From the IMG/VR virus record IMGVR_UViG_3300024999_000238, positions 1-36,921 of that record: a DNA stretch of 36,921 nt; one strand, written 5' to 3'. How positions within the stretch are numbered: the stretch's first letter is position 1; each line of letters starts with the position of its first letter. Shown one piece after another: positions 2,845 to 29,046 of this stretch. A program made the translations under genes and the position numbers. Origin of the DNA: a virus. The notes beneath the pieces are model-generated. The model was not told the origin of the DNA, ran no database searches, and saw only the letters and a program-made list of their open reading frames with translations.

Positions 2845-4666
2845 CGGCTTAAACGATGCCCAAAGAACTGCAGTTATTTCAAATGCCCCGGTTATATTGA
2901 CACTGGCCGGGGCCGGTACCGGAAAAACAAGAACACTGACACATAGGGTAGCTTATTTAAACCAGGAATGTAGGGTAGGAACCGGACAAATGCTGGCTTT
3001 AACCTTCACGAGATTAGCGGGCAAGGAGATGAAAGAACGGGTTATCTCGCTGATTGGCGAAGAGCAAGGCAAGAAGCTATTCTGTAATACTTTTCATGCC
3101 TTTGCGGTATTGGTGCTTCGCAGATGGGGCCATAAGGTAGGCTTAGAACCTAACTTTACCATCTATGACCAGGAAGACCGCGAGAGTATTTTAAAAACCA
3201 TTATTGAGGAGTTCGGTGGTAAGGTAACGCTTAAAAAGGTCATGCAGAGATATGAGAACTGTGAAGATATGATCGGGGAAAAAATAATGTTTCCCGAAGA
3301 GTTCAGGATATTGGTTGAATACGGCTATAGATTGCGGCAAAACAACGCCGTTGACTTGGACAGGCTTATCGATTTAGTTAACCGTTTATGGGAAAGATTT
3401 CCCGAATCTCTTTTGGAATACCAAAACAACTACACCTATGTTTTTATAGACGAGTTTCAGGATACCAGTGACGATCAGAAACGAATGATTAATTTCATAG
3501 CACCGAAAAACCTGTTTGTGGTAGGAGATGATTTTCAGGCAATTTATGGATGGCGCGGAGCCAGAGTTGACTATATACTTCGATTCCCGGAGGAATATCC
3601 GGGTTGTGAGGTTATTAAGCTGGAGGACAACTACCGGTCAACCAGGGCGATAGTAGCAGCAGCTAATAGACTTATATCATTCAATACCAACCAGACAGAA
3701 AAGAAATTGATAGCTCATAAAGACGGGGTGGAAATTTATACTGCAGTAACTCAATCTAGTGCACAAGAAGCATTGGTTGCCGCTAGGAACATTGAGGAAC
3801 TCATTTGTAAAGGAATCAAGCCGCAGGACATAGCCATACTAGCCAGGACTAATCGGCAGATTAAAAACGCTGTATTTTATCTTGACGGTATAAAAATACC
3901 TACTCAAATAGTTTCTGGCAGCGATGATCCATTTAAGAAAAATGGTGTTCGCGGGATGCTGGAGTTTATGGAATTCCTCAATAACAAAAAAGATAACCAT
4001 ACCTATAAGAAGTGCTTGGATTTCTCGTTAAGGAAATATAGCGAAATAGAACTGCAGGAAATTGAATTATTAGTTTATGAAAACGGTTGCAGTCTCTATG
4101 AAGCTACTTGTATGTGTGGCGAAAATAGTTCGATCTATCCTTTTAGGAAAATGGTAGAAGAGATAGAAATGGTAGTTGAGCAAGGACAATATACAAAAGC
4201 AAGTCAGTATCTTAAGAGCATTGACCTTGTACTTGGGATAACAGAAAAATACAACCAATATGGCCAGCAAAACAGGGTAGATGATATTAAGAAGGCCATA
4301 GTCACCATGGAGAACTGGGAGCAGGGCAAGCGGAGCCTTTGGGAAAGCGACAGCGTACAGAGCTTCCTAAAGTTTTTGAAATACCGCGATATTCAGGAGA
4401 AGTTAATCGAAGAAAAGCCTGCCGTGAAGCTGATGACCGTTCACGCATCAAAGGGGCTTGAATTTGATACAGTATTTGTTCTGGGGCTTAATCAAGGGGT
4501 TTTCCCTAGCAAGAGCAACAAGGACGAGGAAGAGGAAAGACGGCTCTGCTATGTGGCGCTGACGAGGGCTAAAAACCGCTTGGTACTGTGCCGGTCGCTG
4601 ACGTATTCGGACTGGCAGGGTAAGCAAGTGTCAGGCATACCAAGTCAGTACTTAAGTGAAATATAA
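2831..4666 (+). CDS. UvrD/Rep/PcrA-type superfamily 1 DNA helicase
   Basis: The 611 residues carry the SF1A helicase motifs in order: Q-motif region (LNDAQRTAV) at residue 7, Walker A AGAGTGKT at 26-33, Walker B FIDEFQDT near 204, motif III VVGDDFQAIYGWRGA near 230, motif IV-like DNYRST, motif V TVHASKGLEFDTVF near 536 and motif VI CYVALTRAKNRL near 573. It is somewhat shorter than cellular UvrD (about 720 aa), mainly at the C-terminus. Expected role: 3'-5' unwinding in phage replication or recombination. ATG start with CGGAGG upstream. It shares an operon with the SMC-like ATPase. Confidence 0.95.
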   Translation: MKLLNGLNDAQRTAVISNAPVILTLAGAGTGKTRTLTHRVAYLNQECRVGTGQMLALTFTRLAGKEMKERVISLIGEEQGKKLFCNTFHAFAVLVLRRWGHKVGLEPNFTIYDQEDRESILKTIIEEFGGKVTLKKVMQRYENCEDMIGEKIMFPEEFRILVEYGYRLRQNNAVDLDRLIDLVNRLWERFPESLLEYQNNYTYVFIDEFQDTSDDQKRMINFIAPKNLFVVGDDFQAIYGWRGARVDYILRFPEEYPGCEVIKLEDNYRSTRAIVAAANRLISFNTNQTEKKLIAHKDGVEIYTAVTQSSAQEALVAARNIEELICKGIKPQDIAILARTNRQIKNAVFYLDGIKIPTQIVSGSDDPFKKNGVRGMLEFMEFLNNKKDNHTYKKCLDFSLRKYSEIELQEIELLVYENGCSLYEATCMCGENSSIYPFRKMVEEIEMVVEQGQYTKASQYLKSIDLVLGITEKYNQYGQQNRVDDIKKAIVTMENWEQGKRSLWESDSVQSFLKFLKYRDIQEKLIEEKPAVKLMTVHASKGLEFDTVFVLGLNQGVFPSKSNKDEEEERRLCYVALTRAKNRLVLCRSLTYSDWQGKQVSGIPSQYLSEI

Positions 4667-9653: not shown

Positions 9654-10913
9654 ATTAGAGAAATCATTGTTGACAACTTTGCCGGTGGTGGCGGGGCATC
9701 GACCGGCATTGAACTGGTCATTGGTCGGAGTGTAGACATAGCCATAAATCATGATCCGGTAGCAATCGCTATGCACAAAGTAAATCATCCCGGTACAGAA
9801 CACTTTTGTGAATCTGTTTGGGACGTGGATCCGCGACAAGCGGTAAAAGGTAGACCTGTTGCGCTGTGCTGGCTGAGTCCTGACTGTAAGCACTTTTCCA
9901 AAGCCAAAGGCGGAAAACCTGTAGAAAAACATATCCGTGGGCTTGCCTGGGTGGCAGTCAGGTGGGCGGCAACAGTTAGACCACGGGTGATCATCCTTGA
10001 AAACGTTGAAGAATTCAAAACCTGGGGCCCGCTGATGGATGGAAAACCTGACCCCAAGCAAAAGGGACGGACGTTCAATGTATTCATAAACGCTCTTAGG
10101 CGGCAAGGTTATCAAGTTGAGTATAAAGAGCTTAGGGCGTGTGACTATGGGGCGCCAACAATACGGAAAAGGTTTTTCTTGATAGCTAGGTGCGACGGTA
10201 GGCCGATAGTGTGGCCAGTGCCAACTCACGGTAACCCTGAGAGTTTGGATGTCAAAAGCGGCAGGTTGAAACCATGGAGAATGGCAGCTGAAATCATTGA
10301 TTGGTCGTTACCCTGCCCGAGCATTTTTGAACGCAAAAAGCCACTAGCTGAAAACACGATGCGGCGTATTGCCCGGGGAATTCAGAAGTTTGTCATAAAC
10401 AATCCCCATCCCTTTATCGTGCAGGTGAATCATAGCGGGGCTAAACATCATTATTGCCGGCCATTAGATAAGCCGCTATCAACTATCACATCTAAGCACG
10501 GATTTGGGATAGTAGCACCTGTAATAGCAAGGCAATTTGGACAATCCATAGGACATTCGATAGAGGAACCTTTAGGGACGGTTACTGCTGGAGGCATGGG
10601 TAAATCGCAATTAGTTACTGCTTTTATAGCCAAACACTACGGCGGCGGTTACACAGGACCTGGTAGTAGTTTAGGGGAGTCACTGCATACTGTTACAACC
10701 AAGGATCACAGTGCTCTGGTGACAGCGTTTTTATCAAAGTACCATGGCGAAACTTCACCGACTGGAGCGCGAGGACAGCAACTAGACGAACCTATTCGGA
10801 CAGTAGACAGGTTATTGATACGAAAGGTTTTAAGACTCCTGAATACAAGATTAAGAAAAAGATACTTCTGTTTAGGTACCCGGAACTGGACTTTACGGAG
10901 GAATAATTGGTGA
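9654..10913 (+). CDS. C5-cytosine DNA methyltransferase, C-terminally truncated, apparent ATT start
   Basis: Motif I (FAGGGGASTGIE) lies at the N-terminus, followed by the catalytic-loop variant SPDCKHFSKAKGGKP, ENVEEF (motif VI) and TIRKRFFLIA (motif VIII). Then come the PL.T(I/V)T repeats typical of phage members. Motif I is reached in this frame only from upstream of the ATG at 9771, yet no ATG, GTG or TTG lies between the preceding stop (9618-9620) and motif I. The best start is ATT at 9654, 7 nt after AGGGGG (within AGGGGGTGAG, 9641-9650). After EPIRTVD (about 10806) the sequence no longer resembles the family: the C-terminal target-recognition end and motifs IX-X are missing and about 35 unrelated residues follow. 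Likely inactive or altered. Confidence 0.8.
   Translation: MREIIVDNFAGGGGASTGIELVIGRSVDIAINHDPVAIAMHKVNHPGTEHFCESVWDVDPRQAVKGRPVALCWLSPDCKHFSKAKGGKPVEKHIRGLAWVAVRWAATVRPRVIILENVEEFKTWGPLMDGKPDPKQKGRTFNVFINALRRQGYQVEYKELRACDYGAPTIRKRFFLIARCDGRPIVWPVPTHGNPESLDVKSGRLKPWRMAAEIIDWSLPCPSIFERKKPLAENTMRRIARGIQKFVINNPHPFIVQVNHSGAKHHYCRPLDKPLSTITSKHGFGIVAPVIARQFGQSIGHSIEEPLGTVTAGGMGKSQLVTAFIAKHYGGGYTGPGSSLGESLHTVTTKDHSALVTAFLSKYHGETSPTGARGQQLDEPIRTVDRLLIRKVLRLLNTRLRKRYFCLGTRNWTLRRNNW
10811..10906 (+). pseudogene. 3' remnant of a DUF1064-type phage nuclease gene
   Basis: In the frame one base off the methyltransferase, 10811-10906 encodes VIDTKGFKTPEYKIKKKILL followed by FRYPELDFTEE and a stop. This is the usual end of DUF1064 (PF06356) phage endonuclease-like proteins: a conserved DVKG, a TPE(Y/F)K.KKK helix and an aromatic-Pro tail. 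The N-terminal part is absent and the frame runs directly back into the methyltransferase, so a deletion joined the two genes near 10805-10811. Recognition is from memory of the family pattern. Confidence 0.65.
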
Positions 10914-26137: not shown

Positions 26138-27076
26138 ATGGATACATTAATTCGCGAAACAAAACCAAAGCCGGGGCAATTGCCAGAGATTATCCCGGCT
26201 CAATATTGGGACCCTGATTCAGATGATGGAAATGGTGCTTACGAAAAGATTCGCGGTACCAGAGGGGCTCCTAGGGTGCTGTTGTGGGGTGTTGACGGGG
26301 CCCCGTTGCTAACAGAGGAATACCCGGGCCATATGGATATGATTGATAGGGCGGCCCGGTTATTAGGTAAAGTGAGTGCTGATGATGGATCGCTAGTTAC
26401 TCTTGGTGCTATCGCTGATGCTGTAGTAGCGGCTGGTGCTACCGGGACACTGAGCGCAAAACTTAGGCGGCTAACAACTGACCTGGATGCTTTACTTACA
26501 AAAGTTGGTGAAATTCAAGCCAGTCCAACGGCAAATACGATACTCGCCCGCTTAAAAGATATCAAGGATGGTATCCCACTAACTGGTAGTTCAGTGGTGG
26601 TAGGAAAGGTTGGAATTGACCAGACAACTGATGGTACAACAAATAAAGTTTCTGCCGAAAATAAGGTAAGCAACGGTACAACCTTAGACACCTGGCGTAA
26701 TAATGTGCAAAAAACATTACTTGCATCAGCAGCAAGAACAACTGCAACAACAAGTCCTGTGCAAGATAATTATAATGCGCGTGGGGTTGTTTTGACCTTA
26801 AATGTTACGGCAAATCCAGGTGGTGCAGAAACGCTTGAATTGAGGTTGTATTACAGGGTTGGTGTTACAGGTGGTCTTTTTGCAAAAATGGCAATACCGG
26901 CAGCAACGAACGCTACATACTCATTAATTGTTTGTCCTGGTTCAAGCGGAACACCTGAGACTGCCGCAGCCTACAAAACATATTCTTTGGCTATCCCAAG
27001 GCAATATGTAGCAAATGTAACACCTTCAGGGGCAGGTTCGTGGACATACGAATTAACTGCTACTGAAATTGTTTAG
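26138..27076 (+). CDS. Structural protein with C-terminal beta-sandwich (312 aa)
   Basis: The N-terminus is Pro-rich (TKPKPGQLPEIIPAQYWDPD). A central helical region (VSADDGSLVTLGAIADAVVA, LRRLTTDLDALLTKV) resembles trimeric fibre stalks. The C-terminal 110 residues (TLNVTANPGGAETLELRLYY) form a beta-sandwich. It may decorate the tail tube or be a short fibre. Function is not established. Confidence 0.6.
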   Translation: MDTLIRETKPKPGQLPEIIPAQYWDPDSDDGNGAYEKIRGTRGAPRVLLWGVDGAPLLTEEYPGHMDMIDRAARLLGKVSADDGSLVTLGAIADAVVAAGATGTLSAKLRRLTTDLDALLTKVGEIQASPTANTILARLKDIKDGIPLTGSSVVVGKVGIDQTTDGTTNKVSAENKVSNGTTLDTWRNNVQKTLLASAARTTATTSPVQDNYNARGVVLTLNVTANPGGAETLELRLYYRVGVTGGLFAKMAIPAATNATYSLIVCPGSSGTPETAAAYKTYSLAIPRQYVANVTPSGAGSWTYELTATEIV

Positions 27077-27089
27077 GGGGGGTGTATAG

Positions 27090-27296
27090 GTGTTAGATAC
27101 AAAAGTTTTTAATACAGCAACAGATTACGTTTTTAGCGTTACTGATGGAGCAGATACTTATGAGTATAGCTTTGCAAAAGAAGTATCAGAAGGACAGGAT
27201 CTGACTACTTATCTGCAAAACTGCAAACGAGAAGCGGAATTACTTGCGCAACTCGAAATTGACCAAAAAGTGTCACCGCAGGAAATAATTATTTAG
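27090..27296 (+). CDS. Small tail-region protein (68 aa)
   Basis: GTG at 27090 after GGGGGGG. The sequence FVFSVTDGADTYEYSFAKE-like start (actual YVFSVTDGADTYEYSF) is beta-rich and a helix NCKREAELLAQLEIDQK follows. Unknown function. It is the last late gene before the repressor-integrase cassette. Confidence 0.6.
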   Translation: MLDTKVFNTATDYVFSVTDGADTYEYSFAKEVSEGQDLTTYLQNCKREAELLAQLEIDQKVSPQEIII

Positions 27297-27298
27297 CG

Positions 27299-27320
27299 AG
27301 CTAACGAAAATGCGTTAGCT
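27299..27320. repeat. Inverted repeat with 6-bp spacer; candidate recombination core
   Basis: AGCTAACG (27299-27306) and CGTTAGCT (27313-27320) are perfect 8-bp arms around AAAATG. The arm-spacer-arm geometry suits a tyrosine-recombinase crossover site. It lies at the left edge of the cassette and 403 bp from the integrase start. A perfect palindrome CCGGGCCCGG follows at 27331-27340. As RNA the repeat is a hairpin without U-tract, so a terminator is less likely. Confidence 0.35.
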
Positions 27321-27351
27321 AGCTGATGAACCGGGCCCGGAAGGATAACAA

Positions 27352-27378
27352 AAAGCCACCCGGTTTTAAGGTGGCTTT
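27352..27378 (-). terminator. Rho-independent terminator of the repressor gene (bidirectional)
   Basis: AAAGCCACC (27352-27360) pairs with GGTGGCTTT (27370-27378) around a 9-nt loop. On the minus strand it is followed by a T-run (CTTTTTG), just after the repressor stop. On the + strand the stem is followed by TTTAAAATTT, so it may also stop late transcripts entering the cassette. Confidence 0.8.
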
Positions 27379-27383
27379 AAAAT

Positions 27384-27599
27384 TTAATCTTCTTTTAGAT
27401 ATAGTAAATCGGCTATGTTAATTTTAAGATATTCGCAAAGCTTAGTAATAAGGTCTTCCGGATAATGTTTCATTTCGTCGTTGTAAAACTGCCTAACGCT
27501 TGCAAACCTGTAGTCAATATCTCTGGATACTTGCCGGATAGATAATTTCCGGTCATCTAGAATTTCTTTTAAATTTGAATGCAACTTTAAGGCACTCAC
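27384..27599 (-). CDS. XRE/Cro-type HTH repressor (71 aa)
   Basis: GTG start at 27599 follows AGGGAGGTG; the reading from 27608 would put its start inside the ribosome binding site. Residues about 10-60 form the five-helix Cro/CI fold, with LSIRQVSRDIDYRFASVRQF as the helix-turn-helix and LITKLCEYLKINIADLLYL at the end. No C-terminal dimerisation or cleavage domain is present. Divergent from the integrase, with three operators between them; O1 overlaps its own promoter, so it should autoregulate. Confidence 0.85.
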   Translation of the reverse strand: MSALKLHSNLKEILDDRKLSIRQVSRDIDYRFASVRQFYNDEMKHYPEDLITKLCEYLKINIADLLYLKED

Positions 27600-27620
27600 G
27601 GGCAGCACCTCCCTACCTTT

Positions 27621-27648
27621 ATTATAATTGATACGAAAAAAGTTTCAA
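27621..27648 (-). promoter_or_regulatory. Repressor promoter
   Basis: On the minus strand, TTGAAA (27648-27643), a 16-bp spacer and TATAAT (27626-27621). The predicted start near 27614 lies at the ribosome binding site, so the leader is very short. O1 (27630-27646) covers the spacer and -35. Confidence 0.75.
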
Positions 27649-27704
27649 GTATAATATTGATACTAATTTAGTATCGTGATATACTTAGATACGAAAATAG
27701 TATC
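27630..27704. promoter_or_regulatory. Three 17-bp repressor operators with exact 29-bp phasing
   Basis: O1 is GATACGAAAAAAGTTTC (27630-27646), O2 GATACTAATTTAGTATC (27659-27675, perfect palindrome) and O3 GATACGAAAATAGTATC (27688-27704). All have the GATAC-N7-GTATC form, O1 with a degenerate right arm. Start-to-start distance is 29 bp in both cases. O1 covers the repressor promoter, O2 the integrase -35 and O3 its start site. Confidence 0.8.
27657..27685 (+). promoter_or_regulatory. Integrase promoter
   Basis: TTGATA (27657-27662), 17-bp spacer, TATACT (27680-27685): a near-consensus sigma-A promoter. Start is expected near 27692, inside O3, giving a leader of about 30 nt to ATG 27723. Confidence 0.8.
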
Positions 27705-27722
27705 AATTTGGAGGTGCTGCCA

Positions 27723-28565
27723 ATGTTATTGTCGAAAGCATGGAAACTTTACGAAGCGGACAAGCGTCTTTTAGGATACTCGCTACATACGCTTAAAGCC
27801 TATCAACTGCAGTCTAACTTGTTAATTAGGCACATAGGCGACGTCGAAACTGAGGAAGTTACCCATGTAGCACTTAAAGAGTATTTGATTAAGCAGGACC
27901 ATCTCAAACCTGCCAGTATCGGACATAGAATAAAGTTTATACGCGCCTTCTTTAGATACCTACATGAAGAAGGTTTCATTGAACGCAATGTTTCCTCGAA
28001 ACTGAAGGAACCAAAGCAGGGCGCCAGGATCCCAAAGGCGCTGAACACTGAAGAAGTGGAATTGCTACGGGATGCCTGCAGTAGTTCGCTGGAAAAGGCG
28101 CTCACTGAATTTTTCTACGCCACAGGATGTCGGATAGGCGAAGTTTTTGGACTGAACATAAAAGACATTAATTGGCAGACAAGATCCGCTCTTGTCATTG
28201 GCAAGGGTAACAAACAGCGCGAAGTGTATTTCACTGAGAGGTGCAGGATATGGCTGCAGAAATATTTACAGAGTCGGACCGATGAACATGAAGCCCTGTT
28301 TGTAACAGTCAGAAAACCTATCCGACGTATGTCGATAGCCAGAATCAGGGAGATAGTGAAAGATATCGCCAAACACTCTGAGGTGGAAGTAAATGTCTAT
28401 CCGCACAGATGGCGGCATACGACAGCAACTACGATGTTGGAGAATGGGGCTCCATTACATGTTATTATGTCCAGCATGGGGCACGCCCGTCCCAGTACCA
28501 CGATGATTTATGCCCAGCTCTCCGGGGAGCGTCGGAGGCAGGAGTATAATAAATATTTTAGGTAG
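27723..28565 (+). CDS. int: Tyrosine recombinase/integrase
   Basis: ATG at 27723, 6 nt after GGAGGTG. The 280-residue protein has the N-terminal SAM-like DNA-binding domain (KAWKLYEADKRLLGYSLHTL) and a complete catalytic domain: R137 in GCRIGEV, K161 in GKGNKQREV, H228 and R231 in HRWRH, H254 in GHARPS and the nucleophile Y263. There is no AP2-like arm-binding domain, so it resembles XerC/D in size more than large phage integrases. It would integrate and excise the phage or invert or move a local segment. It lies inside the tail gene cluster, with its own promoter and terminator. Confidence 0.93.
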   Translation: MLLSKAWKLYEADKRLLGYSLHTLKAYQLQSNLLIRHIGDVETEEVTHVALKEYLIKQDHLKPASIGHRIKFIRAFFRYLHEEGFIERNVSSKLKEPKQGARIPKALNTEEVELLRDACSSSLEKALTEFFYATGCRIGEVFGLNIKDINWQTRSALVIGKGNKQREVYFTERCRIWLQKYLQSRTDEHEALFVTVRKPIRRMSIARIREIVKDIAKHSEVEVNVYPHRWRHTTATTMLENGAPLHVIMSSMGHARPSTTMIYAQLSGERRRQEYNKYFR

Positions 28566-28587
28566 ACCGTCCTTTTAGGGCGGTTTT
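28566..28587 (+). terminator. Rho-independent terminator after integrase
   Basis: ACCGTCC (28566-28572) pairs with GGGCGGT (28578-28584, one G-U pair) around a 5-nt loop, followed by TTTTAAATTT. It begins 1 bp after the integrase stop and lies 22 bp before the tail chaperone gene, so late transcription must read through or restart. Confidence 0.75.
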
Positions 28588-28608
28588 AAATTTAAGGGGG
28601 GCAAACTT

Positions 28609-29046
28609 ATGATTTGCGAAGTAAACAATACCATAGAACAAAAAATAGAGGCTATTAAAACCCGTACTCCGGATCAGAAAATGACCCGCGAAGGTGTACC
28701 CGTCAGTATTGGCGGGAAAACGTTTGAAATTAAGCCCTTGGTTCGCAAACAGGCCCGGGCTTTTCGCCAAAAGTGGGCTGAGATGGCCGGAAAGTTTCTA
28801 CATATTAATGCCGAACTGACTGATAAAGCCTCTCCTATTAATTCAGTTGTTGCGCTTCTTGATAATCTAGGAGAAGCCGAACCCTTGCAGTTAAATGCAC
28901 TTATCACAGCTATTCCGGAGCTGACCGGAAAAGAAGACTGGATCGATGATAACGCCACAAATGAGGAGTTGGCAGAGGCTATGTTGCTAGCTCTACATAT
29001 GAACGGCATGGGAAACCCTATGAACCCCCGGCAGAGGGGGATGTAA
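28609..29046 (+). CDS. Tail assembly chaperone (lambda gpG-like), unshifted product
   Basis: ATG at 28609 after AAGGGGGG. The 145-residue protein (ISIGGKTFEIKPLVRKQARA-like core; actual VSIGGKTFEIKPLVRKQARA) has the helical layout of tail chaperones and lies just before the tape measure gene, as in lambda G. The slippery heptamer near its end allows a longer frameshifted form. Confidence 0.8.
   Translation: MICEVNNTIEQKIEAIKTRTPDQKMTREGVPVSIGGKTFEIKPLVRKQARAFRQKWAEMAGKFLHINAELTDKASPINSVVALLDNLGEAEPLQLNALITAIPELTGKEDWIDDNATNEELAEAMLLALHMNGMGNPMNPRQRGM

Follow-up and report, generated by a model that had tools for sequence, protein, structure and literature searches.

Probable recombinase-driven, integron-like exchange of virion tip modules in a phage community

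The recombinase locus and its two sites

We studied a repressor-recombinase locus in a 36.9-kb virus record (IMG/VR record IMGVR_UViG_3300024999_000238, positions 1 to 36,921), here called the window, which is a fragment whose last open reading frame (ORF) runs past the right end. The late genes of the window point rightward. Between two of them, the small gene 27090-27296 and gene 28609, lie a helix-turn-helix (HTH) repressor gene and a divergent tyrosine recombinase gene; gene 28609 precedes a 79-aa ORF and then a tape-measure gene. An initial annotation of this DNA had described the same arrangement. Pfam recognized both proteins (Table 1), and, as the annotation supposed, the position is abnormal and some recombination takes place there. 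That annotation missed a short site at 26576-26590, within the structural gene upstream. We call it the left site, the palindrome that follows the small gene the right site, and the stretch between them the module.

The palindrome of the window begins two bases past the stop codon of the small gene and has DNA fold z-scores of -3.6 and -4.3 on the two strands; a terminator scan did not call it. By comparing the DNA upstream of the cassettes we obtained a consensus right site, AACTAACG-AARRTG-CGTTAGTT, placed directly 3' of the last gene before the cassette. Its core was found in 34 IMG/VR stretches, 30 of them in one sample series, and some of these are the same phage from different samples. 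The matches outside the series (L061, L077, L085 and L094) were judged to be due to chance and set aside, as were those found there with a shorter pattern. A record-wide search of 40 records, nearly all selected for carrying the site or the recombinase, gave 46 matches in 37 records, versus 2 for the reversed control; G001, G003 and G008 gave no match, and their variant sites were identified by comparison. In 26 out of 29 tabulated loci an upstream frame has its stop between -12 and +6 bp relative to the right site (counting frames of at least 40 codons, or at least 30 if running off the contig, and setting aside G002, which was joined with a spacer). Regarding the recombinase, all 15 tabulated loci that carry it have the site upstream, at 66-424 bp, except for G012, with 1,251 bp and an extra ORF between. 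Among them, G001, G003 and L009 have variants that the pattern search missed.

The 6-base centre of the palindrome tracks the module type in the comparable cases, and each centre also occurs with other modules. It is AAAATG in the window, L062, L073 and L091, with a one-base-shorter variant in G001, and AAGGTG in L064, L067, L071, L084, L087 and L089. By eye, AACTAACG-centre-CG seems more constant than the bases 3' of it. In L059 and G027 a second right site closely follows the first, separated from it by a short additional segment, as though small cassettes had been inserted there. These comparisons suggest that the palindrome belongs to the end of the module, as attC does. Besides, the start of a structural gene stands on both sides of the palindrome in L087 (-2532 to +739 around the site at 3017), and that of a head-tail adaptor-like gene in L064 (around 8436), which looks like the outcome of an insertion between two copies. 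Two near-identical phages, L005 (5610) and L011 (L042 981), differ by a few changes in the right arm that create a different inverted repeat, a difference that resembles quasi-palindrome correction.

In the genes 5' of the palindrome, the first part is conserved and the last part varies. The left site, CAACTAACTGGTAGT, lies at the junction of platform and variable tip, in frame and of the QLTGS type. An unguided k-mer count brought out its 12-mer ACTAACTGGTAG, present in 17 of 31 left flanks (17 of the 28 with at least 500 bp); this 12-mer has AACTAAC in common with the palindrome, in the same direction. Allowing at most one mismatch, AACTAACTGGTAG gave 27 matches in 664 kb of selected contigs and none for the reversed pattern. 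Twenty-five precede a right site on the same strand (in G002 and G007 only across the contig ends), and all of these are in frame and read [QKP]-[LV]-[TS]-G-[SR]. The other two are at 4390 in G003, in an open frame and not before a known right site, and at 12789 in L064, out of frame and on the opposite strand. Five further loci showed weaker left sites (12-13 of 15) in four cases and none in L060.

We also scanned for the left site alone, which yielded 101 stretches; 69 of the 80 listed were new. Thirteen new loci belong to the sample series, five of them being copies of one phage, and all 13 are in frame (QLTGS). L138 and L199, from samples 3300025015 and 3300025030, which were added to the series for this test, are identical to first-series loci. 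Nine of the new series loci continue for at least 1.9 kb past the left site, and each of these shows a right-like site (13-15 of 16) at a distance of 1.05-2.04 kb; the remaining four end within 1.3 kb, and three of them are identical to loci of known right site. For the 56 new loci outside the series the best right-site score was 12 of 16, with 18 of the 56 having less than 2.1 kb downstream.

Table 1. Features of the recombinase locus and its surroundings in the window
Feature	Position	Strand	Basis or remark
Structural protein gene	26138-27076	+	N-terminal platform-side part (to about codon 146) fused to exchangeable C-terminal jelly-roll domain (predicted)
Left recombination site (putative), CAACTAACTGGTAGT type, 1 mismatch in the window, in frame PLTGS	26576-26590	+	Motif counts; L150/L166 breakpoint
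Small module gene, 68 aa, last before right site	27090-27296	+	Aligns with module genes in other backbones
Right recombination site (putative), 22-bp palindrome AGCTAACG-AAAATG-CGTTAGCT	27299-27320	+	Core count in IMG/VR; adjoins recombinase in relatives
Terminator-like hairpin of repressor gene	27352-27378	-	Scan; hits not above shuffles
HTH_26 repressor	27384-27608	-	PF13443, 8.2e-12
Divergent promoters and dyad operators	27621-27707	.	Repeat and promoter scans
Xer-like tyrosine recombinase	27708-28565	+	Phage_integrase, 1.3e-36; invariant columns; Xer matches
Hairpin 3' of recombinase, probable terminator	28566-28584	+	DNA fold z -2.0; terminator scan did not call it
Next late gene, right-hand backbone; tail chaperone by position only	28609-29046	+	Same neighbour in G004, G005/G006, G011 and G012

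Modules change between the two sites

A module comprises the variable C-terminal domain and usually a small gene, and measures 532-2203 bp. L150 and L166, both from one sample, share 91% identity until the final base of the left site, show no detectable similarity through the module and return to 84% identity 3 bases ahead of the right site. L198 and G001 are 86% identical as far as the last base of the left site, and L073 and L076 go from around 35% across the module to 98% from the right site onward. The window, G004 and G012 have a common backbone (73-84% upstream, 74-89% downstream) and different modules; in same-backbone relatives of the window, only the N-terminal part of the structural gene is conserved, while the C-terminal part differs. 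Modules also recur in unrelated backbones: that of G001 and L073 is 94% identical over 417 bp, that of G002 and L125 is 100% identical over 118 bp, to the contig end, and whole modules are the same in L064/L089 (78%) and L067/L071 (73%). The small gene 27090-27296 aligns with module genes from other backbones in L073 (60%), L091 (46%) and L062 (38%). Comparison of these loci establishes the sites, the modules, their exchange and its boundaries.

Some contigs end at or near the sites. The G002 contig starts 19 bp before the right site and ends around 0.1 kb past the left site, the L009 contig has its start inside the left site, and G007 matches the L009 module at each end. Such ends are compatible with several modules per backbone in the samples, and are no proof of it.

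Regarding the products, the model of the structural protein of the window is weak overall (predicted local distance difference test score, pLDDT, 49.7, with 60-82 for residues 201-312) and presents residues 189-312 as a beta sandwich, a predicted jelly roll. Its best VIA row is XepA of PBSX (Z 11.5, root-mean-square deviation (rmsd) 1.9, 97 aligned), a match within 1 Z of an unrelated protease domain; the jelly-roll chain of a Bordetella phage capsid structure gave Z 9.9 and rmsd 2.7 with 106 aligned. The L064 module is LamG-like by eye, and its low-confidence model (pLDDT 56) is a lectin-like beta sandwich that matches lectin-like domains of sialidases and clostridial toxin binding domains at around 12% identity, from which we claim no function. 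When ten upstream proteins were searched against Pfam at 0.01, the only one named was that of G004, whose module encodes a polysaccharide deacetylase domain. The tip modules likely act in surface binding.

The recombinase, its relatives and the lysogeny question

The recombinase of the window has 285 aa counted from the TTG at 27708 and 280 aa from the ATG at 27723, the start used by most aligned relatives. R142, K166, H233, R236, H259 and Y268, which we take to be the catalytic residues, are among those that do not vary across all 10 aligned sequences. Its closest solved relative is XerD (1.9e-28). It scores under the curated cut-off of each NCBIfam model that it matches, integron integrases included: 187.6 bits versus 220 for XerA (E 2.9e-55), 181.4 versus 335.15 for XerC and 175.2 versus 329.6 for XerD. 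By these scores the recombinase does not qualify as an enzyme of Xer/dif chromosome resolution. The integron-integrase model TIGR02249 gave 75.2 bits against a cut-off of 265, with the match in two stretches. The best stretches align residues 16-190 of the window protein with profile positions 11-185, and residues 208-268 of its relative in L062 with 242-302, which suggests that the segment between them is shorter than in integron integrases.

Two scans found the recombinase in phages of a single sample series. Full-length copies are 68-95% identical to that of the window, and the 15 tabulated loci range from 48 to 100%, some of them partial or broken. Some relatives share the late genes of the window and have the recombinase immediately 5' of the counterpart of gene 28609; in unrelated backbones it lies between major-head/decoration-type genes and head-tail genes (gene roles by eye). 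The contigs of G004, G005/G006 and G012 are continuous across the locus, while those of G010 and G011 end inside the recombinase gene. The recombinase frame is disrupted at 1888-2731 in L058 and at 6004-6857 in L059. L060 retains only the final 59-61 bp of the gene (95-98% identical), so there it was lost or replaced; at its expected place after the palindrome stands an ORF that is HNH-like by eye (642-1600).

A search of genome contigs for recombinase relatives gave seven loci, with a best segment 33% identical and no host junction seen, and therefore no prophage context. Of seven retrieved relatives with 30-35% identity, three (L127, L128 and L131) adjoin genes that by eye resemble type I restriction specificity subunits, a known setting of segment shuffling, which hints at a single enzyme group for such shuffling. 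The recombinase of a Terrisporobacter phage (34% identity) likewise lies 3' of a structural gene, with a palindrome, TGCACAAT-TTGAATCT-ATTGTGCA, after the stop of that gene. We searched the structural gene for a second copy of the palindrome arm and found none, so this phage was set aside as a two-site parallel.

One could argue, in line with the first option of the initial annotation, that the recombinase is the integrase of the phage and the palindrome its attP, so that integration separates head from tail genes. A single palindrome does adjoin the recombinase, and the G002 and G007 contigs end near the module. However, these ends fall on two sides of the module, and those of G007 match the module of L009 and not host DNA. 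Several contigs are continuous through the locus, and the same sequences occur in very different backbones, at different genes (roles by eye). The annotation had itself named an additional integrase elsewhere, with the cassette present, as evidence against its proposal, and G004 and G002 each carry one. In G004 a 407-aa integrase, a probable ImmA-like gene, a repressor and a divergent HTH gene lie at 2.9-7.0 kb; in G002 a 400-aa integrase and repressor-type genes lie at 15.2-19.4 kb (integrases by PF00589, other roles by eye). The attP explanation is largely refuted and we give it hardly any credence, and the repressor-recombinase cassette is unlikely to be the lysogeny module.

The other option, a mobile or regulatory insertion, came nearer to the truth. 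The unit does come and go: it is present in L055 and not in L071 and L091, whose downstream genes are related. But it is chiefly the structural-gene module to the left that moves. A recent insertion in the phage of the window is not supported, as all five loci found through gene 28609 have the recombinase just upstream (one of them only its end). In a stricter form, the pair would be a selfish element inserting at the palindrome, and the diversity of modules would reflect ordinary receptor-binding evolution. The patchy presence of the pair agrees with this, as does the G001 recombinase, 93% identical to that of the window in an unrelated backbone. Against it, modules differ in backbones of the same kind without a nearby recombinase (L073/L076), the left site is far from any insertion of the pair, and we saw no common flank at the right end of the recombinase across backbones. 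We consider this explanation quite improbable.

The control region bears out the operators proposed between the divergent genes, with a dyad (27656-27675/27688-27707) and a 19-nt repeat (at 27630 and 27688) that overlap sigma-70-like promoters on both strands. In 27250-28650 we counted 9 promoter-like sites, versus 3.2 +/- 1.8 expected in shuffles. The terminator scan gave 2 matches versus 1.3 +/- 1.3 expected, which is no excess. Of the terminators proposed at the two cassette ends, the right one finds a counterpart in the hairpin 3' of the recombinase; the left one is the shared palindrome. The repressor type varies among relatives (HTH_26, another HTH, ribbon-helix-helix (RHH)-like, or none detected), with the recombinase constant. 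An additional ORF (264 aa), HNH-like by eye, lies between right site and repressor in L015 (3992-4786). The 53-kb contig G017 has right sites at 200 and 37532, each followed by a near-identical RHH-like repressor and preceded by different head genes, so that it may hold tandem phages or a misjoin. Elsewhere in the window, 9771-10913 encodes a C5-cytosine methylase domain by a partial match (protein residues 35-142 of 380 versus model positions 67-163 of 324).

A probable exchange system and its relation to known ones

According to these results, recombinase-driven, integron-like exchange of virion tip modules across the phage community seems probable. The comparative evidence is strong; catalysis of the exchange by the recombinase we infer. 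A late structural gene would provide a fixed N-terminal part ending at the left site, read as QLTGS, and an exchangeable module (the C-terminal tip domain, usually with a small gene) would end just before the right site, followed in many phages by the repressed Xer-like recombinase. Once released from the repressor, the enzyme would recombine the sites and thereby excise or insert modules, or trade them between co-infecting phages. Phages that have no recombinase gene would rely on an enzyme supplied in trans. In this scheme the enzyme, the reaction's direction, any circular intermediate and the timing are all presumed.

Several observations weigh against the exchange just outlined. In 12 out of 30 tabulated loci there is no recombinase in the 2-3 kb past the right site, and 15 of the 24 records searched have no tyrosine recombinase at all, although many may be fragments. 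G027, which an identical terminal repeat of 1,901 bp closes, carries two modules and gave no match to PF00589, and the recombinase is frameshifted in L058 and L059. Similarity ends before the left site in four same-backbone pairs, by 52-100 bp in L055/L071, 106-190 bp in the window and G004, 82-235 bp in L058/L089 and 143-776 bp in L073/L076; hence earlier or further exchanges, or evolution of the linker, have to be reckoned with. The codons of the left site are skewed (CTA in 23 of 25 Leu, with a background of 0.12, and GGT in 27 of 27 Gly), a skew that is in part due to shared descent and in part circular, because most left sites were found by that DNA motif. This circularity and the early loss of similarity in L073/L076 slightly lower our confidence. 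Finally, the two sites are alike only in AACTAAC and diverge after it, which leaves a simple left-by-right recombination unexplained; left-by-left plus right-by-right exchange, or an integron-like half-site reaction, is possible.

Conserved boundary sequences have been described in mosaic phages, and the two sites might be short conserved anchors for phage-encoded or host homologous recombination, the recombinase having another task. The 12 loci without a nearby recombinase would fit this, as would a left site that encodes a conserved peptide and the four pairs in which similarity ends before it. However, the anchors span only 15-22 bp, with near-random identity beyond them inside the module, and the palindrome stands just 5' of a dedicated recombinase in every tabulated locus that has one. 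We regard the anchor explanation as unlikely.

Among known systems, integrons likewise have an Xer-like tyrosine recombinase, a single half-type site at one end, a palindromic site beside the stop codon ending each cassette, and cassettes common to unrelated carriers. attC sites have R and L boxes and a GTTRRRY core consensus, and the GTTAG in the palindrome arm resembles this core. In contrast to integrons, the recombinase is far under the integron-integrase cut-off and apparently lacks a stretch of that model, the palindrome has 22 bp with a GTTAGTT or GTTAGCT that deviates from GTTRRRY at one position, the left site lies inside coding sequence and the cassette is consequently fused in frame, and the carriers are phage late operons with mostly one module per platform. 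Like Xer/dif, the system has XerC, XerD and XerA as nearest relatives of its enzyme and 8-bp inverted arms around a 6-bp centre; unlike it, it is phage-borne, has a divergent repressor gene, adjoins structural genes and uses another site sequence. Shufflons and phage tail-fibre inversion (Rci, Gin, Cin, Min) work with inverted sites and draw their segments from a fixed local set. They too place variable C-terminal ends on a constant adhesin N-terminal part, but here both sites have the same direction and alternative modules reside in other phages. An inversion system was rejected, as the 25 left sites point the same way as the right site that comes next; in the window at 25.7-29.4 kb, the inverted-repeat pairs other than the operator dyad were only weak and distant.

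The pneumococcal tvr system shuffles hsdS segments by excision-reintegration in a bacterial restriction locus (PMC6265443). The same text reports recombinase transcription held down by neighbouring regulators (PMC6265443), a role that we predict here for the repressor, and direct AACTAAC copies at both ends of most tabulated modules are of the tvr type. Unlike in tvr, the modules here vary from one whole phage genome to another, and small HTH or RHH-like proteins serve as the putative regulators. In the open-licence PMC literature (titles and starts of abstracts, no preprints) we found no description of a system such as the one proposed here. We give even chances to a cassette system carried by phages and distinct from integrons, in which the community as a whole shares a pool of tip modules. 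Each module would have a palindromic end of its own and move between unrelated phages, on head or tail genes, via an in-frame site; the driver would be a repressed Xer-like recombinase, encoded by only some phages and used in trans by the others.

Phage mosaicism is usually ascribed to chance or to homologous recombination. Here, modules resembling surface-binding tips change at two recurring sites across unrelated backbones, in the best cases with boundaries at the level of the base. If the enzyme catalyses the exchange, exchanging tips would be a programmed and shareable function. The acquisition of new surface-binding modules by phages would then be directly testable with two short sites and one gene, and unrelated phages could trade surface-binding parts as ready-made gene cassettes.
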